Assembly: GCA_902581775.1 (NCBI GenBank)
Contig: CACHPJ010000004.1
Location: 1-64,000, forward strand
From: an uncultured Pelagibacteraceae bacterium
Lineage (GTDB): Bacteria; Pseudomonadota; Alphaproteobacteria; Pelagibacterales; Pelagibacteraceae
Direction: 5' to 3'
Length of the DNA stretch: 64,000 nt
The translations under genes and the position numbers were made by a program. Each line of letters opens with the position of its first letter. Positions within the stretch are counted from its first letter, which is position 1. Positions 11,093-44,348 of the stretch are shown here, in pieces. The notes beneath the pieces were generated by a model. It worked only from the letters and a program-made list of their open reading frames with translations. It did not search any database and was not told the DNA's origin.

Positions 11093-12139
11093 ATGTCTAA
11101 AATAATTATCATAGGTGCAGGGGCAATGGGTTCAGCTTTCGCTTTCCCTTGTTTAGATAATACTCATGACACCACTATTATCGGTACTCATTTAGAAAAT
11201 GAATTTATAGACAACTTAAAGAAAAACAAAAACTTACATCCAGTTCTTGGAGTTAATTTACCTAAAGATATTAAAATACATAAATTTGATAAATTTAATG
11301 AACTATTTAAGTCAGATGTCGATTTAATCGTTTTAGGAATTAGCTCTAAAGGAATTGAATGGGCTTCAGAACAGCTGTTATTGGTAGCAAAAGAAAAAAA
11401 ATTACCAAATATTCTTATGTTAACAAAAGGACTTAGCGTTTATGAAGATAAATATGAATTATTAGTCGATAAACTTAAAAGATTATTGAAATCACAAGGA
11501 GTAACGAACCTAAATATCTCTGCTGTTGGAGGACCTTGTCTTGCTGCCGGACTTGCAAATAAAGTTCATAGTAGTGTTGTAATTGCAAATGAAGAAATTC
11601 AAACTGCAAAAAAAATTGCTGATATGCTTAATACTAGTTATTATCACACTTCTTATTCAGACGATTTAAATGGAGTAGAAGTTTCAGCAGCAATAAAAAA
11701 TATTTTTTCTATGGCAGTAGGTGCAGCCAGAGGTTTATCCAGCAATACAGTTTCAGATGAAGTGAGAGAAAAAAATTATTTAAATACTGCTTCTGCTTTA
11801 ATTAAACAATCAATATATGAAATGGAAATATTTGTGGAACATTTAAAAGGAAGAAAAGAGACAGTAAAAGGATTAGCTGGGCTGGGAGATTTATATGTTA
11901 GTTCTGGTGGCGGCAGAAATGCAAAAATGGGAGCATATATAGGCGAAGGTTTTACTTTTTCTGAAGCAAAAAAAACAAAAATGAAAAATATAACTATCGA
12001 GGGAGCTGATCTTGCAAAAGAAATAGCTAAAAAAGTTAATAAAGACTTTAATCAAAAAAAATTACCTTTAATGCTCGGTATGATTAATGCAATTATTGAA
12101 GATAAAAAACTTGAACTTAACTGGGAGCTATTTAGGTGA
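11093..12139 (+). CDS. gpsA: NAD(P)-dependent glycerol-3-phosphate dehydrogenase, GpsA family
   Basis: IIIGAGAMGSAFAFP; GGPCLAAGLA; EVSAAIKNIFSMAVGAARGL; LAGLGDLYVSSGGGRNAKMG. Confidence 0.88.
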   Translation: MSKIIIIGAGAMGSAFAFPCLDNTHDTTIIGTHLENEFIDNLKKNKNLHPVLGVNLPKDIKIHKFDKFNELFKSDVDLIVLGISSKGIEWASEQLLLVAKEKKLPNILMLTKGLSVYEDKYELLVDKLKRLLKSQGVTNLNISAVGGPCLAAGLANKVHSSVVIANEEIQTAKKIADMLNTSYYHTSYSDDLNGVEVSAAIKNIFSMAVGAARGLSSNTVSDEVREKNYLNTASALIKQSIYEMEIFVEHLKGRKETVKGLAGLGDLYVSSGGGRNAKMGAYIGEGFTFSEAKKTKMKNITIEGADLAKEIAKKVNKDFNQKKLPLMLGMINAIIEDKKLELNWELFR

Positions 12140-13071
12140 GAAAGATTTTTACAATTTTAATTTTAAATATTTTAATATCAACTTTTTCTTATGCTAAAGA
12201 TAAAATACTCATTAGTGGTTTTATTAATAAACAGTCACAAGTAAAAAGTGATATTGAGGTTATAAATCCTAAAAATAAAATTATAATTATTTATAATCAT
12301 GGACAAAATACTAATGATACAGCTAAAAAGAGCGAATGTATTTGGGTAAACCAAATAAATAATCAAGCCTCATTAGTGGATGAGGTAGTTAATGGTAAAA
12401 AAATTATGGTTTATAATTTATGTTCAAATGATTTTGCTGGAGATATGTCACTGAAAAAAAATTGGTGGAAATCAAAAACTCCTTATGTAGGTAAACATAA
12501 ATTAGATAAAAGAGTTGAAAAAAATTTAGAATTAGTTGAAAAATTTGTATCTATGGGTGTACCAAGGAAACAAATCATTATATCAGGTCATTCTTGTGGG
12601 GGTCTGTTAACTTTAATGCTATTATCTGCTCACCCTGAAAAAGTAGGCGGAGGGATATCATATATGCAAGCATGTTTTGGCAAACTTTCTTCTAAATATA
12701 AAGTAAAAAAAGTTGGTCCTGAAGCAGCCCTGGCTAAATTTGCTAAGAAAAATCCAGGTCCTGCTGAACTTAGAAATAGACAAATTAATAATATTAAAAA
12801 TTCAAATAATGTATCTGTTCTAGCTTTTACACATCCTAAAGATAAGTGGGAGGGATTGTTGTCTGATTGGTTGGAAGAAGTCCCAGGAGTTAAAAGAATT
12901 GTTATTTCTGAAGATTATAAAATTAATGGAAAGTCTTGTGTTGTAAAAGGAGATAATTGGCAAGAAAACATTTCAGTTAGAAAAAATCCAGGCCATGAAA
13001 TGAACCAGGGTTTATGTTTTCAATATTATAATTCTGAAATATTAAAATATATAAAAGGTAGGATTTCATGA
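12136..13071 (+). CDS. Secreted alpha/beta-hydrolase-like protein
   Basis: GTG start, signal peptide, nucleophile elbow SGHSCGG; C-terminal GHEMNQG possible catalytic His. Confidence 0.65.
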   Translation: MRKIFTILILNILISTFSYAKDKILISGFINKQSQVKSDIEVINPKNKIIIIYNHGQNTNDTAKKSECIWVNQINNQASLVDEVVNGKKIMVYNLCSNDFAGDMSLKKNWWKSKTPYVGKHKLDKRVEKNLELVEKFVSMGVPRKQIIISGHSCGGLLTLMLLSAHPEKVGGGISYMQACFGKLSSKYKVKKVGPEAALAKFAKKNPGPAELRNRQINNIKNSNNVSVLAFTHPKDKWEGLLSDWLEEVPGVKRIVISEDYKINGKSCVVKGDNWQENISVRKNPGHEMNQGLCFQYYNSEILKYIKGRIS

Positions 13072-13257: not shown

Positions 13258-14739
13258 ATGAAAAAATTTATAATATCTATTGATGCAGGCACTACATCAA
13301 ATAGATCGATTTTATTCGATCTAAGAGGAAAACCTATTTATTCAGCACAAAAAGAATTTACCCAATATTTCCCTAAAAGTGGTTGGGTAGAGCATGATCC
13401 AGATGAAATTTGGAAAACAACTATTAAAACATTAAAAGATGTAATTGCTAAAGCTAAAAAATTAAGAGGAAAAATTTTAAGTATAGGGATCACAAATCAA
13501 AGAGAAACAACAGTCCTATGGGATAAAAAAACTGGAAAGACTGTTTATAAAGCAATTGTTTGGCAAGACAGAAGACAAGAAGAGTTTTGTAAGAAATTAA
13601 GAAAACAAAATAAAGATACAATGATTTTTAATAAGACTGGTTTATTAATTGACTCATATTTTTCTGGAACAAAAATCAAATGGATCTTAGACAATATTCC
13701 AAGAGCTAAACATTTAATGAATAAAAAACAATTGTTATTTGGAACAATTGATAGTTATTTGATTTGGAAACTTACTAAAGGTAAAGTACATGCAACAGAC
13801 GCAACTAACGCTAGCAGAACTATGATTTTTAACATTTCATCTAACAAATGGGACGATACAATCTTAAAACTTTTAAAAATTAAGAAACATATTCTTCCCG
13901 AAGTAAAAGATTGTGCGGACGACTACGGCGAAACCCATTCAACAATAACTGGTATATCAATACCAATAAATGGTGTTGTTGGTGATCAACAATCAGCTAC
14001 GATAGGTCAATGCTGTTTTGAGCCAGGCTCTTTAAAAAGTACCTACGGGACAGGCGCGTTTGTTTTGCTAAATACTGGTAGTAAGAAGATTTATTCAAAA
14101 AATAGATTGTTAACTACAATTGCCTATAGAATTAATGGGAAAACAACTTATGCTATGGAAGGATCAATCTTTATTGCAGGCGCAGGAGTTCAATGGCTTA
14201 GAGATAGAATGAAATTTTTAAAGAAAGCAGCTGAAACAGAAAAAATCCTAAAGTCTTTACAAACTAATAATGGAATTTATTTAGTTCCTGCATTTACTGG
14301 CTTAGGAGCACCTCATTGGAATGCTAACTCAAGAGGTGTTTTAAGTGGAATAACTAGAGATACAAGTCCAAAAGAAATTATCAGAGCTACAATAGAGGCT
14401 GTTGCTTATCAAACTCATGATTTATTTGAGGCAATGAAACATGACGGTCTAAGACCAAAAATAGTAAAAGTTGATGGTGGAATGGTGATGAATAACTGGT
14501 TTTCACAATTTTTATCAGATGTAGTTAATGTAAAAGTTTTAAGACCGAAAGTTCAAGAAACGACTGCAGCTGGTGCGGCATTTATGGCGGGACTTAAAAT
14601 AGGTGTTTATAAATCCCTTCAAGATATTTCTAAAAATTGGCATTTAGATAGAAATTTTTCTCCAAAAATGAAAAATAAACAAAGAATTAAATTAATCAGG
14701 GGCTGGTCTATTGCTATAAAGAGAACTTTAATTAACTAA
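13258..14739 (+). CDS. glpK: Glycerol kinase
   Basis: SIDAGTTSNRSILFD; TNQRETTVLWDKKTGKTVYKAIVWQDRR; GDQQSATIGQCCFEPGSLKSTYGTGAF; VDGGMVMNNWFSQFLSD. Confidence 0.97.
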   Translation: MKKFIISIDAGTTSNRSILFDLRGKPIYSAQKEFTQYFPKSGWVEHDPDEIWKTTIKTLKDVIAKAKKLRGKILSIGITNQRETTVLWDKKTGKTVYKAIVWQDRRQEEFCKKLRKQNKDTMIFNKTGLLIDSYFSGTKIKWILDNIPRAKHLMNKKQLLFGTIDSYLIWKLTKGKVHATDATNASRTMIFNISSNKWDDTILKLLKIKKHILPEVKDCADDYGETHSTITGISIPINGVVGDQQSATIGQCCFEPGSLKSTYGTGAFVLLNTGSKKIYSKNRLLTTIAYRINGKTTYAMEGSIFIAGAGVQWLRDRMKFLKKAAETEKILKSLQTNNGIYLVPAFTGLGAPHWNANSRGVLSGITRDTSPKEIIRATIEAVAYQTHDLFEAMKHDGLRPKIVKVDGGMVMNNWFSQFLSDVVNVKVLRPKVQETTAAGAAFMAGLKIGVYKSLQDISKNWHLDRNFSPKMKNKQRIKLIRGWSIAIKRTLIN

Positions 14740-14828: not shown

Positions 14829-16544
14829 ATGTTTAAAACATTGAAAACAATATTAGCTGTTGCTGTTACATCTTCTCTTCTTTCAACTTCTATTTATGCA
14901 GATGCTATAAATAAATGGGCAAGTGGAGAATTTAGTCTTTCTACTCTATCCAAAAAAGAGAGAGTTGCAGAGCTAAAATGGTTCCAGGATGCTGCGAAGC
15001 CGTTCAAAGGAATGTCTATCAAAGTGTTATCTGAAACTATTCCAACACACGAGTATGAGTCAAAAACTTTAACAAAAGCTTTTGAGGAAATTACTGGGAT
15101 TAAAGTTAATCACCAGTTACTTGGTGAAGGGGATGTAGTAATGGCTGTTCAAACACAAATGCAAACTAACGTTAGTATCTACGACGCGTATATCAATGAC
15201 TCTGATTTAATTGGTACTCATGCTAGAATGCAACAAGCTGTTAACCTTACAAAATGGATGGCTGGAGAAGGTAAAGATGTAACTTTACCAACTTTAGATT
15301 TAGACGATTTTATTGGTAAGCAGTTTACTACAGGACCGGATGGCGATTTATACCAAATGCCTGACCAACAATTTGCTAACCTTTACTGGTTTAGAAAAGA
15401 TTGGTTTGACAGACCTGAAATCAAAAAAGGTTTTAAAGCCAAATACGGTTATGATTTAGGAGTACCTCTTAATTGGTCTGCTTATGAAGACATCGCTAAA
15501 TATTTCTCAGAAGATGTGAAAAATATTGATGGTGTTAGAATATATGGTCACATGGACTACGGTAAAAGAGCTCCCGACCTAGGTTGGAGAATGACTGATG
15601 CGTGGTTATCAATGGCTGGAGCAGGTGATGTAGGTAAACCTAATGGAATACCAGTAGACGAATGGGGAATAAGAATGGAAAAAGGTTCTTGTAACCCTGT
15701 AGGAGCTTCAGTAACAAGAGGTGGAGCTGCTAACGGCCCTGCTGCTGTATACGCAATCAGAAAATGGGATGAGTGGTTAAGAAACTACGCCCCTCCAGGT
15801 GCTGCGGCTATGGATTTCTATCAGTCTCTACCGTCACTATCTTCTGGAAACGTTGCTCAGCAAATTTTCTGGTACACAGCTTTCACAGCTTCTTTAGTAG
15901 GAAAAAACCCTAATAATAAAGTTGTTGATGCTAATGGTAAACCGTTATGGAGAATGGGTCCGTCACCAAAAGGACCTTATTGGGAAGAAGGCATGAAGCT
16001 TGGATATCAAGATGCTGGATCATGGACATTATTTAAGTCTACACCAGTTAAAAATAGAAAAGCTGCATGGTTGTATGCTCAATTCGTTGTATCAAAAACA
16101 GTAGATCTTAAGAAAAGTCACGTTGGTTTAACTATTATAAGAGATAGTTCAATCGATCATAAATCATTTACTGACAGAGCAGGTGATTTAGGTGGACTTG
16201 TAGAGTTCTATAGATCAAACAACAGAAATATTTGGTCACCAACAGGTGTAAACGTTCCGGATTATCCGAAACTTGCACAAATCTGGTGGCAACAAATTGG
16301 AGATGTAAACTCAGGTGCGTTTACTCCACAACAAGCTATGGATCGTCTTGCAGAGGAGATGGACTTAGTTATGTCACGTATGGAAGCTGCTGACAAAGGT
16401 AGCAATGCATACGGTGGATGTGGACCAAGACTTAATAAACCAAGAGAAGCTTCTTATTGGTTAAATAAGAAAGGTTCACCAAAAGCTAAACGTAACGAGA
16501 AACCTCAAGGAAAAACTGTTCCATACGCGAAAGCTTGGAAGTAG
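14829..16544 (+). CDS. glpV: ABC transporter substrate-binding protein, glycerol type (GlpV-like)
   Basis: Signal peptide; large (571 aa) extracellular SBP; first gene of an SBP-ATPase-ATPase-permease-permease-small-membrane-protein series next to glpK, matching the rhizobial glpSTPQUV gene set. Confidence 0.82.
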   Translation: MFKTLKTILAVAVTSSLLSTSIYADAINKWASGEFSLSTLSKKERVAELKWFQDAAKPFKGMSIKVLSETIPTHEYESKTLTKAFEEITGIKVNHQLLGEGDVVMAVQTQMQTNVSIYDAYINDSDLIGTHARMQQAVNLTKWMAGEGKDVTLPTLDLDDFIGKQFTTGPDGDLYQMPDQQFANLYWFRKDWFDRPEIKKGFKAKYGYDLGVPLNWSAYEDIAKYFSEDVKNIDGVRIYGHMDYGKRAPDLGWRMTDAWLSMAGAGDVGKPNGIPVDEWGIRMEKGSCNPVGASVTRGGAANGPAAVYAIRKWDEWLRNYAPPGAAAMDFYQSLPSLSSGNVAQQIFWYTAFTASLVGKNPNNKVVDANGKPLWRMGPSPKGPYWEEGMKLGYQDAGSWTLFKSTPVKNRKAAWLYAQFVVSKTVDLKKSHVGLTIIRDSSIDHKSFTDRAGDLGGLVEFYRSNNRNIWSPTGVNVPDYPKLAQIWWQQIGDVNSGAFTPQQAMDRLAEEMDLVMSRMEAADKGSNAYGGCGPRLNKPREASYWLNKKGSPKAKRNEKPQGKTVPYAKAWK

Positions 16545-16612: not shown

Positions 16613-17677
16613 ATGAGTCTAGAATTAAAAAACGTAGAAAAAAAAGTTGGAATAGCCACTCATATTTATCCTACAAGCCTTAAATTAGAAAAAAATACTA
16701 TAAATGTACTTCTTGGTTCGACATTGGCTGGAAAGACAACATTAATGCAAATAATGGCAGGATTAGATAAACCCTCTTCGGGCGAAATATGGTTTAACGG
16801 AGAAAATGTTACTGGCATGAAGGTTCAAAAAAGAAATTGTTCGATGGTTTATCAGCAATTTATTAATTACCCAAATTATACGGTGTATGAAAATATTGCA
16901 TCTCCATTAACAATAACGGGTGTTAAAACAGATGAAATTAAACAAAGAGTTGGAAAGGTAGCTGAGCTTTTAAAATTATCAGCAATGCTTGATAAAAAAC
17001 CTGATGAATTGTCAGGTGGTCAACAACAAAGAACAGCTTTAGCAAGGGCTTTAGTCAAGGACTCAGATTTAATTTTACTGGATGAACCTCTGGCAAACTT
17101 AGACTTTAAGTTAAGAGAGGAATTGCGGGAAGAACTACCAAAATTGTTTGAAAATAGAGATTGTATAGTAGTTTATGCAACAACAGAGCCATCAGATGCT
17201 TTGATGATAGGTGGTAATACAGCAACTATACTAGAAGGCAAAGTTATTCAGTATGGAAAAACTTTAGAAGTTTATAATAAACCTGAAAATTTAATTTCAG
17301 CTAAAGTTTTTAGTGATCCACCAATGAATATAGCTGAAATCACAAAAATTGGAGATAATTGTAAATTTGTTAACAATAATGTTCAGTGGAAATCGTTTAA
17401 GAAAATTAAAGATGGAACTTATAAAATTGGCATAAGACCACACAATATCACTACATACAAAGAGGGAAATAATTCAGTCGAAATTAATGGAAAAGTGCAG
17501 ATTTCAGAACTTAGTGGTTCAGAAAGTTTAATACATTTTACTAATGGTAACTTAAGTTGGGTTTCATTATCTAACGGTACACAACAAAAAAACGTTGGAG
17601 AAGATACTAAACTTTACATGAATACAGATGAGTTTTTATATTTTGATCAAAATAACAGATTGGTAAACAATGGCTAA
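16613..17677 (+). CDS. glpS: ABC transporter ATP-binding protein (GlpS-like)
   Basis: Walker A LLGSTLAGKTTL, signature LSGGQQQR, Walker B LILLDEP; H-loop position reads YATTEPSDAL. Confidence 0.85.
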   Translation: MSLELKNVEKKVGIATHIYPTSLKLEKNTINVLLGSTLAGKTTLMQIMAGLDKPSSGEIWFNGENVTGMKVQKRNCSMVYQQFINYPNYTVYENIASPLTITGVKTDEIKQRVGKVAELLKLSAMLDKKPDELSGGQQQRTALARALVKDSDLILLDEPLANLDFKLREELREELPKLFENRDCIVVYATTEPSDALMIGGNTATILEGKVIQYGKTLEVYNKPENLISAKVFSDPPMNIAEITKIGDNCKFVNNNVQWKSFKKIKDGTYKIGIRPHNITTYKEGNNSVEINGKVQISELSGSESLIHFTNGNLSWVSLSNGTQQKNVGEDTKLYMNTDEFLYFDQNNRLVNNG

Positions 17678-18734
17678 AATTACTTTAAAGGATTTAAGTC
17701 ACAGTTATTTAGAAAAACAAAATAACAATTCTGATTGGGCTTTAAGAGATGTTAATATTGATTGGAAAGATGGTGGCGCTTATGCACTATTAGGCCCATC
17801 AGGTTGTGGCAAGACAACTTTATTAAATATTGTTTCAGGTTTATTAAAACCAACGAAGGGTAGAGTTTTATTTGATGATAAAGATATGACATCATTTAGC
17901 CCTGTTGAAAGAGATATTGCCCAAATATTTCAGTTTCCAGTTATTTATGACACTATGTCTGTCTATGATAATTTAGCTTTTCCGTTAAAAAATAGAGGTC
18001 TTTCAGACTCTGAGGTTGCATCTAAAGTTAGGGAAATTGCCGGAATGCTCGAATTGACATCCACGCTAAACAATAGAGCATCTGGATTAACAGCTGATGG
18101 TAAACAAAAAATTTCCTTAGGTAGAGGACTTGTCAGATCAGATGTAAATGTAATTATGTTTGATGAACCATTAACTGTTATAGACCCGCATTTAAAATGG
18201 GTTCTGAGATCTAAATTAAAAGAGCTGCATCAAAAAATTAATCGAACTATGATATATGTAACACACGATCAAACGGAAGCCTTAACTTTTGCAGATCAAG
18301 TTGTAGTTATGCATGAAGGTCAAATCGTTCAAACCGGAACACCTGTTGAACTATTTGAGAAACCTAAACATACTTTTGTTGGACATTTTATTGGTTCACC
18401 TGGAATGAATATACTTCCTTGTGAGATTAAAAATGGCGAAATAAGTTTTAGTGGTCAAAAAATCCAAAGTCATAAAGCTGTAAAAAAATCAAATTTTAGT
18501 AAAACACAAATAGGCATTAGACCAGAATTTATAAATTTTTCAAAAGATGGGATTCCAGTTAAAATTAAAAGAGTAAGTAATACAGGAAGACATAAAATTG
18601 TTGATACAGTATGCGATGAGGGAAATATTAAAATATTATCCAACGCTTCTACTGAAATTCCAAGTGGAAGCGCTCATATAACTTTTAATCAAAAATATAC
18701 TTATGTTTATGGAGATAGCTGGATTATAGAATAA
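17670..18734 (+). CDS. glpT: ABC transporter ATP-binding protein (GlpT-like)
   Basis: Walker A LLGPSGCGKTTLL, Walker B VIMFDEP, H-loop VTHDQTEAL; signature replaced by LTADGKQKISLGRGL. Confidence 0.85.
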   Translation: MAKITLKDLSHSYLEKQNNNSDWALRDVNIDWKDGGAYALLGPSGCGKTTLLNIVSGLLKPTKGRVLFDDKDMTSFSPVERDIAQIFQFPVIYDTMSVYDNLAFPLKNRGLSDSEVASKVREIAGMLELTSTLNNRASGLTADGKQKISLGRGLVRSDVNVIMFDEPLTVIDPHLKWVLRSKLKELHQKINRTMIYVTHDQTEALTFADQVVVMHEGQIVQTGTPVELFEKPKHTFVGHFIGSPGMNILPCEIKNGEISFSGQKIQSHKAVKKSNFSKTQIGIRPEFINFSKDGIPVKIKRVSNTGRHKIVDTVCDEGNIKILSNASTEIPSGSAHITFNQKYTYVYGDSWIIE

Positions 18735-19600
18735 TGAATAAAACTATAAATCAAAAAGCTTGGTATTTTGTAATTCCTGTATTTATTCTAGTGGCATTTA
18801 ATGCAGCTATTCCATTAATGACTGTAGTAAATTATTCATTTCAAGAAACTTTTGGAAATAACGTTTTTGCATGGGAAGGAACAAGATGGTTTAAACAAAT
18901 TTTACTGTCAGAAAGATTTCATGCAGCATTAGGAAGACAAATAGCATTTACTTTCATTATTCTCTTAATTCAAATACCTCTTGGAATTGCAATTGCTTTA
19001 ACAATGCCAAAAAAAGGTTGGGGTGTTCCTGTTTGTTTAATTCTAATGTCCATGCCTCTTCTAATACCCTGGAATGTTGTTGGAGCAATGTGGAATATAT
19101 TTGCTTTACCTGATATTGGTTTTTTAGGTCATTCTTTAAATGCATTGGGTTTTGATTATAATTTTACACAACAACCTGGTGATGCATGGTTTACAACAAT
19201 TTTAATGGATGTTTGGCATTGGACGTCATTAGTAGTTCTTTTATCTTACGCAGGTCTAAATTCAATTCAGCCTGCGTATTATCAAGCTGCAGAAATCGAT
19301 GGTGCTAGCAGGTGGGCAACTTTCAGATATATAGAATTACCGAAAATGAAAAAGGTTTTAACTTTAGCAATTTTATTAAGATTTATGGATAGTTTCATGA
19401 TTTATACCGAACCATTTGTTTTAACAGGCGGTGGGCCAGGAAACACTACTGCATTCTTATCAATTGATTTAGTAAAAATGGCTTTAGGTCAATTTGATTT
19501 AGGACCTGCAGCTGCAATGTCATTAATCTATTTCTTTATTGTTCTTTTGGTGTGTTGGGTTTTTTATAATTTAATGATGAAAAATGAGGCGCAATCATGA
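18734..19600 (+). CDS. glpP: ABC transporter permease (GlpP-like)
   Basis: Polytopic; EAA-type motif YYQAAEIDGASRWATFRYIELPKM. Confidence 0.88.
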   Translation: MNKTINQKAWYFVIPVFILVAFNAAIPLMTVVNYSFQETFGNNVFAWEGTRWFKQILLSERFHAALGRQIAFTFIILLIQIPLGIAIALTMPKKGWGVPVCLILMSMPLLIPWNVVGAMWNIFALPDIGFLGHSLNALGFDYNFTQQPGDAWFTTILMDVWHWTSLVVLLSYAGLNSIQPAYYQAAEIDGASRWATFRYIELPKMKKVLTLAILLRFMDSFMIYTEPFVLTGGGPGNTTAFLSIDLVKMALGQFDLGPAAAMSLIYFFIVLLVCWVFYNLMMKNEAQS

Positions 19601-20397
19601 AAAAATATAAATGGTTAGTACCTACATTATATATAATTTTTTTAATGTTACCGATCTATTGGTTAATAAATATGTCATTTAAAACAACCACTGAAATTAT
19701 AAATACTTATTCTTTATGGCCTCAGAAATTTACAACAGAAAATTATGTAAAAATCTTTACAGATAGCACCTGGTATATGGGTTACGTTAACTCAATTACT
19801 TATACTGTATTCAATACCTTTATTTCTGTTGCTGCAGCCTTACCAGCAGCGTACGCATTTTCTAGGTATAAATTTTTAGGTGACAAGCATTTGTTCTTTT
19901 GGTTGTTAACCAATAGAATGGCTCCGCCAGCTGTATTTGCTTTACCCTTTTTTCAGTTTTATTCTTCTGTGAACTTATTTGATACCCATATAGCTGTTGC
20001 CTTATCTCACTGCCTATTTAATATCCCTTTAGCAGTTTGGATATTAGAAGGTTTTATGTCTGCAGTTCCAAAAGAGTTGGATGAAACAGCTTACGTAGAT
20101 GGATATTCATTTGGAAGATTTTTCTTTAAAATTTTTGTTCCAACGATAGCTGCTGGAATAGGTATTACAATGTTTTTCTGCTTCATGTTTTCTTGGGTTG
20201 AACTTTTATTGGCTAAAACATTAACAGCAACAGCAGCTAAACCAATTGCGGCTACAATGACCAGAACCGCAAGTACTTCTGGTTATGAACTCGGCTTATT
20301 AGCAGCGGCAGGAACTTTAACAATAATACCAGGAGCAATCGTGATATACTTTGTGAAAAATTATATTGCAAAAGGATTTGCGATGGGAAGGGTTTAA
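19597..20397 (+). CDS. glpQ: ABC transporter permease (GlpQ-like)
   Basis: MalG-like permease; EAA motif ELDETAYVDGYSFGRFFFKIFVPTIAAG. Confidence 0.88.
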   Translation: MKKYKWLVPTLYIIFLMLPIYWLINMSFKTTTEIINTYSLWPQKFTTENYVKIFTDSTWYMGYVNSITYTVFNTFISVAAALPAAYAFSRYKFLGDKHLFFWLLTNRMAPPAVFALPFFQFYSSVNLFDTHIAVALSHCLFNIPLAVWILEGFMSAVPKELDETAYVDGYSFGRFFFKIFVPTIAAGIGITMFFCFMFSWVELLLAKTLTATAAKPIAATMTRTASTSGYELGLLAAAGTLTIIPGAIVIYFVKNYIAKGFAMGRV

Positions 20398-20750
20398 TGT
20401 TTACTAAATTATATGCAGCTACTTGGGGAGATGTTGGAAAAGCAAAAGAAAAAGGTTTTTTTGATTTTGATTTATTTTCTTGGATGGCATGGACTTGGCA
20501 AACTGCTTCTTTTTTTATTTTCATAGCTTTATGTATAACAGTAATGCTTATTTGGGAAAAAAAGGTTCCTGGAGGTTCTCCTAGAAAAGGTATTTTAGGT
20601 TTAGACACCACTAGAGGAGATAGGCTTTTTATTTCTTTACTTGGAAGTGCATTTATTCATCTAGGTTGGCTTGCTTTAGTAGGAAGTTTATTGTGGGTTG
20701 GAACAATTCTTTGCATTGGATATGCAATAATAGTTTTTAGATATGTTTAA
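20397..20750 (+). CDS. glpU: Small membrane protein of glycerol ABC operon (DUF2160/GlpU-like)
   Basis: 117 aa, three or more TM segments, WMAWTWQTASFF...RGDRLFISLLG; position after both permeases. Confidence 0.75.
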   Translation: MFTKLYAATWGDVGKAKEKGFFDFDLFSWMAWTWQTASFFIFIALCITVMLIWEKKVPGGSPRKGILGLDTTRGDRLFISLLGSAFIHLGWLALVGSLLWVGTILCIGYAIIVFRYV

Positions 20751-43289: not shown

Positions 43290-44348
43290 ATGTATAGTCC
43301 ATTTTTTGAAATTAAGAATTCAACTTTTTTTGCAAGCGATAGAAATAAAGTTATTAACTTTAATTTGAAGATTGATAGACCAGGTGAAATAATCTGTTTA
43401 CTTGGACCTTCTGGTGTAGGCAAAACAACTATTCTAAGATCAATAGCTGGATTACAGAAAATTGAGAAAGGTGAAATTTCTTTAAAAGGGAAGATCATCT
43501 CCTCAAAAAATATTCATGTTGAACCTGAATTAAGAAATATTGCCTTATCCTTTCAAGACAATAGTTTATTTCCTCATTATAATGTAATTGACAATATAAA
43601 TTTTGGTTCAAACCGTAATTCTAGTTCAAAATTTAAACTTTCTACTAAAGAATTAATAGATATTTTACACCTTAATAAACTAGAAAAAAAATTTCCACAT
43701 CAGATAAGTGCCGGCGAAGCTCAAAGAGTCTCTTTAGCGAGATCGCTTATTTCTAAGCCCAATTTACTTTTAATTGATGAGCCATTTTCTAATATTGATC
43801 AAAGTTTAAAAGGTGAACTTCAATCTAATATAAAGAAACTCCTTAAAAAATTTGAAATTACAACAATTATGGTTACTCACGATTCTTACGAAGCTTTTTA
43901 TATGGGTGATAAATGTGGAATTATCCTTGATCAAAAGTTGGAGCAATACAACACGCCCTATAATATTTATCATTACCCTAATTCAATTAAAATAATTAAA
44001 TTTTTAAACAGAGGTGTTCTAGTTAACGCAAAAGTAATTGACGATGAAACTTTAGAAAATAAAGACTTAGGTAAAATTAAAGGGGTTTTGATAAATAAAT
44101 TTTCAAAAGGATCTAATGTACAATTACTACTTCAACCTGACGATTTAAAACACGATGATAAAAGTGATTTAAAATTGGAGGTAATAGATAGAAAATTTAG
44201 GGGCACGGAATTTATTTATCTAGTCAAAACCAAAAATAACGATTTAATACCAATTTCAGTTGATTCACATCATGGTCATTATCATGAGATAAAAGAAAAG
44301 TTCGGTATAAAAAAACCAATTTATATTGATCATTTAGTATGTTTTTGA
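43290..44348 (+). CDS. Iron(III) ABC transporter ATP-binding protein (FbpC-like)
   Basis: LLGPSGVGKTTILRSIAGLQ; ISAGEAQRVSLARSL; LLIDEPFSNID; VTHDSYEAF. Confidence 0.9.
   Translation: MYSPFFEIKNSTFFASDRNKVINFNLKIDRPGEIICLLGPSGVGKTTILRSIAGLQKIEKGEISLKGKIISSKNIHVEPELRNIALSFQDNSLFPHYNVIDNINFGSNRNSSSKFKLSTKELIDILHLNKLEKKFPHQISAGEAQRVSLARSLISKPNLLLIDEPFSNIDQSLKGELQSNIKKLLKKFEITTIMVTHDSYEAFYMGDKCGIILDQKLEQYNTPYNIYHYPNSIKIIKFLNRGVLVNAKVIDDETLENKDLGKIKGVLINKFSKGSNVQLLLQPDDLKHDDKSDLKLEVIDRKFRGTEFIYLVKTKNNDLIPISVDSHHGHYHEIKEKFGIKKPIYIDHLVCF

Follow-up and report, generated by a model that had tools for sequence, protein, structure and literature searches.

A SAR11 glycerol ABC importer with a predicted asymmetric pair of MalK-type ATPases

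How does an ABC importer power transport if each of its two ATPases has lost a motif that the other has kept? The question is raised by two adjacent genes in a stretch of 64 000 nucleotides from a single-cell or metagenome assembly of an uncultured Pelagibacteraceae bacterium (the window, taken here at its full length). Both lie on the forward strand and encode proteins of 354 residues composed of a MalK-type nucleotide-binding domain (NBD) and a C-terminal OB-type domain: a GlpS-like ATPase (ATPase 1; positions 16613–17677) and a GlpT-like ATPase (ATPase 2; 17670–18734), the ends of the two genes overlapping. An earlier note on this DNA had placed the pair at 16613–18734, which is exact, and had proposed that their motif losses are complementary, leaving one consensus and one degenerate ATP site in a heterodimer.

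The two genes are part of one tight operon, with all of its genes on the forward strand. It begins with a glycerol kinase, GlpK (13258–14739; TIGR01311, 677 bits, above the equivalog cut-off), followed by a GlpV-like substrate-binding protein (SBP; 14829–16544; match to the SBP_bac_1 family profile), the two ATPases, a GlpP-like permease (18734–19600) and a GlpQ-like permease (19597–20397), which are 71 and 76% identical, respectively, to permeases of Rhizobium beringeri, and a GlpU-like small membrane protein of the DUF2160 family (PF09928; 20397–20750; E = 5e-33). The ABC_tran profile is also matched in the operon. The closest loci to the window SBP are Pelagibacteraceae records (94–95% identity); it is 60–66% identical to SBPs on Azospirillum, Thalassospira and Sulfitobacter plasmids and 61% identical to that of the R. 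beringeri glp operon. An SBP, two ATPases, two permeases, a DUF2160 protein and linkage to a glycerol gene are all found together. Judged by its sequences, the operon encodes a SAR11 version of the glycerol ABC importer GlpVSTPQU, with glycerol predicted as its cargo from orthology and from the linkage to glpK.

The importer as such is known. The GlpSTPQUV glycerol importer of Rhizobium leguminosarum VF39 was reported by Ding et al. (2012), as summarised in PMC7912956, where the function of a homologous glycerol transporter is also given, and in Ruegeria pomeroyi both growth on glycerol and its drawdown fall by about 80% when the SBP gene of glpVSTPQ (SPO0608) is mutated (PMC10130141). In R. 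leguminosarum bv. viciae the same six transporter genes lie beside glpD, glpK and a GlpR-type regulator. The Rhizobium and R. pomeroyi systems consist of genes orthologous to those described here, with the same gene set and the same linkage to glpK, whereas the gene order is V-S-T-P-Q-U in the window and S-T-P-Q-U-V in Rhizobium.

The peculiarity lies in the motifs of the two ATPases, which we followed through 154 GlpS and 150 GlpT sequences extracted from 168 loci. The signature of GlpS, LSGGQQQR (17009–17032), is canonical and invariant (154/154), and its LLDEPLANLD segment (17075–17104) holds a Walker B motif (LLDEP) with the catalytic Glu and an ANLD D-loop, DE and NLD being invariant. The Walker A motif is GSTLAGKT (16715–16738), with K41 and T42 retained and the fourth-position Gly replaced by Leu, and the Q-loop reads YQQ. 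The H-loop region, YATTEPSDAL (17174–17203), has Thr191 (codon 17183–17185) in the position of the His. GlpT is altered elsewhere. Its Walker A motif, GPSGCGKT (17793–17816), is canonical, with G, S, G, G and K invariant, as is its H-loop region, YVTHDQTEAL (18255–18284), with an invariant His199, but its signature region is the degenerate LTADGKQKISLGRGL (18087–18131), which carries LTADGKQK at the LSGGQ position. Its Q-loop reads FQF, and its Walker B motif MFDEP is followed by an altered D-loop, TVID (18156–18191), both being fixed across orthologues. The motifs quoted in the earlier note, LSGGQQQR and VVYATTEPSDAL for ATPase 1 and LTADGKQKISLGRGL and VYVTHDQTEAL for ATPase 2, are thus present as written. 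Both proteins align without gaps with solved MalK-type ATPases through the motif regions, so the losses are substitutions and not the result of misalignment.

Both losses are without exception among the orthologues. At GlpS position 191 we found Thr in 113 sequences, Ser in 41 and His in none; LSGGQ is absent from all 150 GlpT sequences, and among the 154 GlpS and 150 GlpT we saw no orthologous pair in which both subunits had kept their motifs. The R. leguminosarum bv. viciae pair has the same two motif sets (LSGGQQQR with YATTEP, and LTADQKQK with YVTHDQ). The orthologous pairs span Alpha-, Beta- and Gammaproteobacteria and one SAR324 genome, and the SBP is present in 88 of 399 sampled Pseudomonadota genomes. 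The two ATPase genes are adjacent in each of the 153 loci that have both (as overlapping ORFs in two), while nine loci with GlpS alone all run into the end of a contig or locus. Nearly all loci are arranged as V-S-T-P-Q-U or S-T-P-Q-U-V, with a single permease pair and a single SBP per operon. As a comparison, 70 related UgpC/MalK-type ATPases were handled in the same way: the His is present in all of them and [LIM]SGG in 59, the other 11 being first subunits of other tandem pairs.

What has replaced the canonical residues is itself constrained. In GlpS, the Walker A Lys and Thr, the Q-loop Gln and the Walker B Glu (E158) are retained in 154/154 sequences; G40, K41, T42, D157, E158 and Q81 vary little or not at all, and E192-P193 follows the lost His in 151/154. 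The Walker A motif is partly relaxed, with variation at positions 36, 38 and 39. In GlpT, D143, which occupies the place of the second Gly of the signature, is found in 149/150 sequences, K145 and Q146 in 150/150, and G151 and R152 are invariant or nearly so, as opposed to position 144 (the Gln of LSGGQ), which is unconstrained with an entropy of 2.5 bits. The TVID D-loop (versus SxLD) and THDQ are both found in 150/150. Within SAR11, dN/dS is about 0.08 for the whole of GlpS and 0.10 for the whole of GlpT, whereas the degenerate GlpT signature and the GlpS H-loop segment give about 0.03 and 0.04, respectively, all of these being rough values as dS is near saturation. These patterns indicate that the non-canonical residues are conserved and under purifying selection.

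Two seeming GlpT sequences with LSGGQ proved on inspection to be distinct ATPases of the UgpC type encoded in the same loci. Four SBP-only loci, considered as possible outgroups with intact motifs, had no ABC genes nearby: they encode GlpV-like binding proteins of 51–58% identity, and the surrounding 8 kb or so contain neither a related ABC ATPase gene nor a related permease gene.

Where do the altered elements fall in a GlpS–GlpT pair? All of them map to one composite site, as the earlier note had supposed for the His and the signature. Site 1, built from the Walker motifs and His of GlpT and the LSGGQ and ANLD of GlpS, is fully canonical. Site 2, built from the Walker motifs of GlpS with T191 and the LTAD and TVID of GlpT, is degenerate in four elements, namely the Walker A motif and H-loop of GlpS and the signature and D-loop of GlpT; the D-loop crosses the NBD dimer interface. 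The mean entropy is 0.08 bits for the consensus site and 0.55 bits for the degenerate site, compared with 1.0–1.2 bits for the NBD (p = 0.03 between the sites, for columns that are not independent). The degenerate site thus appears to be under weaker constraint than the canonical site, yet is far from free, with several of its residues fixed in a non-canonical state. A deviating signature in one NBD only is found here, as is a missing His in the partner NBD of the same composite site, a frequent but not universal trait of degenerate sites. Replacement of the Walker B Glu in the partner NBD, likewise frequent but not universal in such transporters (PMC7756269), is not found, E158 of GlpS being retained in 154/154.

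The fold of both subunits is that of MalK. AlphaFold2 models, run on single chains with two plasmid-record rows left out of each input alignment, have the MalK architecture with pLDDT values of 93.1 for GlpS and 90.2 for GlpT. The best Foldseek matches are MalK-type ATPases in both cases (TM-scores of 0.76–0.86 for GlpS and up to 0.89 for GlpT), and the scores of the two subunits against MalK, MsmX, SugC and AlgS are mostly 0.8–0.89. In the monomer models, the LTAD of GlpT caps helix 142–154 as the LSGG of GlpS caps helix 135–148, which suggests that the fold of the GlpT signature loop is intact. Both subunits have the RecA-like NBD and the C-terminal OB-type regulatory domain of the MalK-type (CUT1) family, but neither has its full canonical motif set (GlpS lacks the His and GlpT the LSGGQ); by fold and sequence they are divergent, not canonical, members of this family.

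The same asymmetry is found in a second system. A pair of adjacent genes, which we call S2 and T2, is carried by two Streptomyces plasmids, a Ponticoccus plasmid and an alphaproteobacterium, the Actinomycetota cases coming from plasmid records only, in a genome search centred on the phylum of the window. S2 is 34–38% identical to GlpS and T2 is 44–49% identical to GlpT. Where the motifs were read, S2 has YTTTEP or YASTDP and the T2 sequences include LSADLK together with THDQ, so that the joint loss of His and LSGGQ, which the earlier note had suggested following across Alphaproteobacteria, extends from three proteobacterial classes and SAR324 to an actinomycetotal sister system. The S2/T2 operon consists of a GAF or sigma-54 regulator, a Zn alcohol dehydrogenase, an SBP, two permeases, S2 and T2. 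It may import a small alcohol or a polyol. In Streptomyces, its SBP and permeases share no more than about 26–30% identity with their glp counterparts. In a tree of 71 ATPases, S and S2 form one clade and T and T2 another, each with 100/100 support; the two clades are not mutual closest relatives, and their internal branching orders closely match. Both losses therefore predate the separation of S from S2 and of T from T2, or else the pair was transferred as a unit.

Two adjacent MalK-type ATPases in one importer are also seen in further UgpC-like tandem pairs, in which the signature of the first subunit deviates. In type Y (18 loci) the first subunit has L[ST][GS]GD or LAGGD and the second LSGGE; in type X the first has LSVNELQ and the second LSGGE. 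Both types, however, keep the H-loop His in both subunits, and their sites are much less asymmetric than those of GlpS/GlpT. Tandem pairing alone thus does not bring about the loss of the His, which is specific to the S/T clade. The tree places the first subunit of type Y next to GlpT as its closest outgroup (98/93), and the X and Y pairs look like steps toward asymmetry.

We consider it likely that GlpVSTPQU contains an obligate GlpS–GlpT heterodimer with one consensus and one degenerate ATP site, in which hydrolysis takes place mainly or only at the former. An obligate heterodimer is favoured because either homodimer would lack any complete site. The consensus site would combine the Walker A and B motifs, Q-loop and His of GlpT with the LSGGQ and D-loop of GlpS, and would probably support one hydrolysis event per transport cycle, or about one ATP per glycerol. 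In the degenerate site, the Walker A and B motifs of GlpS, whose His is replaced by Thr or Ser, would face the LTADxKQK loop and TVID of GlpT. That GlpS retains the Walker A Lys and the Glu suggests that this site still binds Mg-nucleotide. It would hold nucleotide (or at least Mg-phosphate) without fast hydrolysis and, by analogy with TAP, TM287/288 and MRP1, may serve as a hinge that keeps the NBDs together. The invariant Asp143 of GlpT, near the expected position of the γ-phosphate, leaves room for a sensor role. A broader proposal, to which we give an even chance, is that only one ATP site has long been hydrolysable in a MalK-type lineage that spans two or more phyla and two or more kinds of cargo, the second having become a fixed non-hydrolytic hinge or sensor built around the new conserved motif LTADxKQK.

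The same retained residues can be read differently. With the catalytic Glu and Walker A Lys of GlpS in place, the second site may still hydrolyse ATP slowly, and this counts against the main reading. A stronger version, in which both sites hydrolyse ATP through non-canonical working residues (Glu158 and Thr/Ser191 of GlpS, Lys145/Gln146 of GlpT) and the asymmetry is formal only, would accommodate the full retention of the GlpS catalytic residues and the fact that LSGGQ has been replaced by a conserved motif and not by random sequence. We nevertheless regard it as unlikely, since both losses, of the His and of the signature, always strike one and the same site and spare the other, and since the free position 144 and an invariant Asp in place of the second Gly fit poorly with a working γ-phosphate clamp. 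That Asp would in turn disfavour ATP, and together with the relaxed GlpS Walker A motif it might point to a degenerate site acting as a regulatory nucleotide sensor or as a nucleotide-free structural contact, with hydrolysis at the other site only. The near-invariance of G40, K41, T42, D157, E158 and Q81 argues that Mg-nucleotide still binds there, and we regard this reading, too, as unlikely.

Far less probable is the absence of a heterodimer, with GlpS and GlpT each forming homodimers or serving different permeases. Homodimers are the usual state of MalK-type ATPases (MalK, UgpC, SugC and MsmX), but here each would have two crippled sites, the two genes are adjacent in all 153 loci that have both, and each operon, with its single SBP and single pair of permeases, leaves one importer for both ATPases, against the separate permeases that the earlier note had named as a refuting case; the only other full-length MalK-type match in the genome, at 43290–44348, is very distant. 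Finally, SAR11 genomes are reduced, but neither decay under relaxed selection in such a streamlined genome nor an error of sequencing can account for the pair: over 20 independent SAR11 assemblies show the identical state, as do large genomes from other classes and from another phylum, and dN/dS is low.

The preferred reading, an obligate heterodimer with a single consensus site, sets GlpS/GlpT apart from the systems that they most resemble. MalFGK2, UgpABCE and SugABC (CUT1) share with GlpVSTPQU the NBD with an OB-type domain, an SBP_bac_1 protein and two permeases, but have a homodimer with two canonical sites, compared with a predicted heterodimer with one. The earlier note had called such asymmetry unusual for an SBP-dependent importer. 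This holds for the MalK type: in the open-access literature we found no description of the GlpS/GlpT asymmetry or of a degenerate site in any MalK-type importer, and no structure or biochemistry of the pair. It does not hold for importers at large, as the fused double-NBD CUT2-type importers RbsA and NupO have one site that is degenerate by sequence (PMC11466899); these, however, are single polypeptides of a different importer type and lack the second Walker A Lys, whereas GlpS keeps both this Lys and the Walker B Glu. Among exporters, degenerate sites are textbook knowledge (PMC7756269). The heterodimeric ones that have such a site (TAP1/2, TM287/288, BmrCD, MRP1 and CFTR) lose the signature in one subunit and, in TAP and CFTR, the H-loop in the other, within a single composite site (PMC7756269), as do GlpS and GlpT. 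For Pdr5, restoring the degenerate site is reported to alter or abolish coupling (PMC7756269). The likeness drawn in the earlier note is therefore borne out for the complementary losses but stops at the exporter fold and at the Walker B Glu, which is usually also replaced in exporters, including TAP and CFTR, and is kept in GlpS. On this comparison GlpS/GlpT is best read as the MalK-family importer counterpart of TAP, CFTR and TM287/288. What would be new, as far as sequences can tell, is an asymmetric ABC engine in a predicted heterodimeric MalK-type importer that has kept its catalytic Glu.

How many ATP molecules are spent per substrate, and whether both sites are needed, is a long-standing question for importers that is usually approached with engineered mixed MalK dimers. 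GlpS/GlpT would offer a natural mixed dimer in tractable, already mutagenised systems (R. pomeroyi, R. leguminosarum and Cupriavidus). If only one of the two sites hydrolyses ATP, the need for two competent subunits, a rule derived from MalK, would not be general, and a TAP/CFTR-like asymmetric engine would have arisen separately in nutrient importers, here in bacteria that rank among the most abundant in the ocean.

Two neighbours of the ATPases may be mentioned. The DUF2160 protein (20397–20750) is retained in nearly all glp operons and was not seen in the S2/T2 operons. Directly upstream of glpK, positions 12136–13071 encode a secreted-looking α/β hydrolase (weak Abhydrolase_2 match), possibly an esterase that supplies the importer with glycerol.
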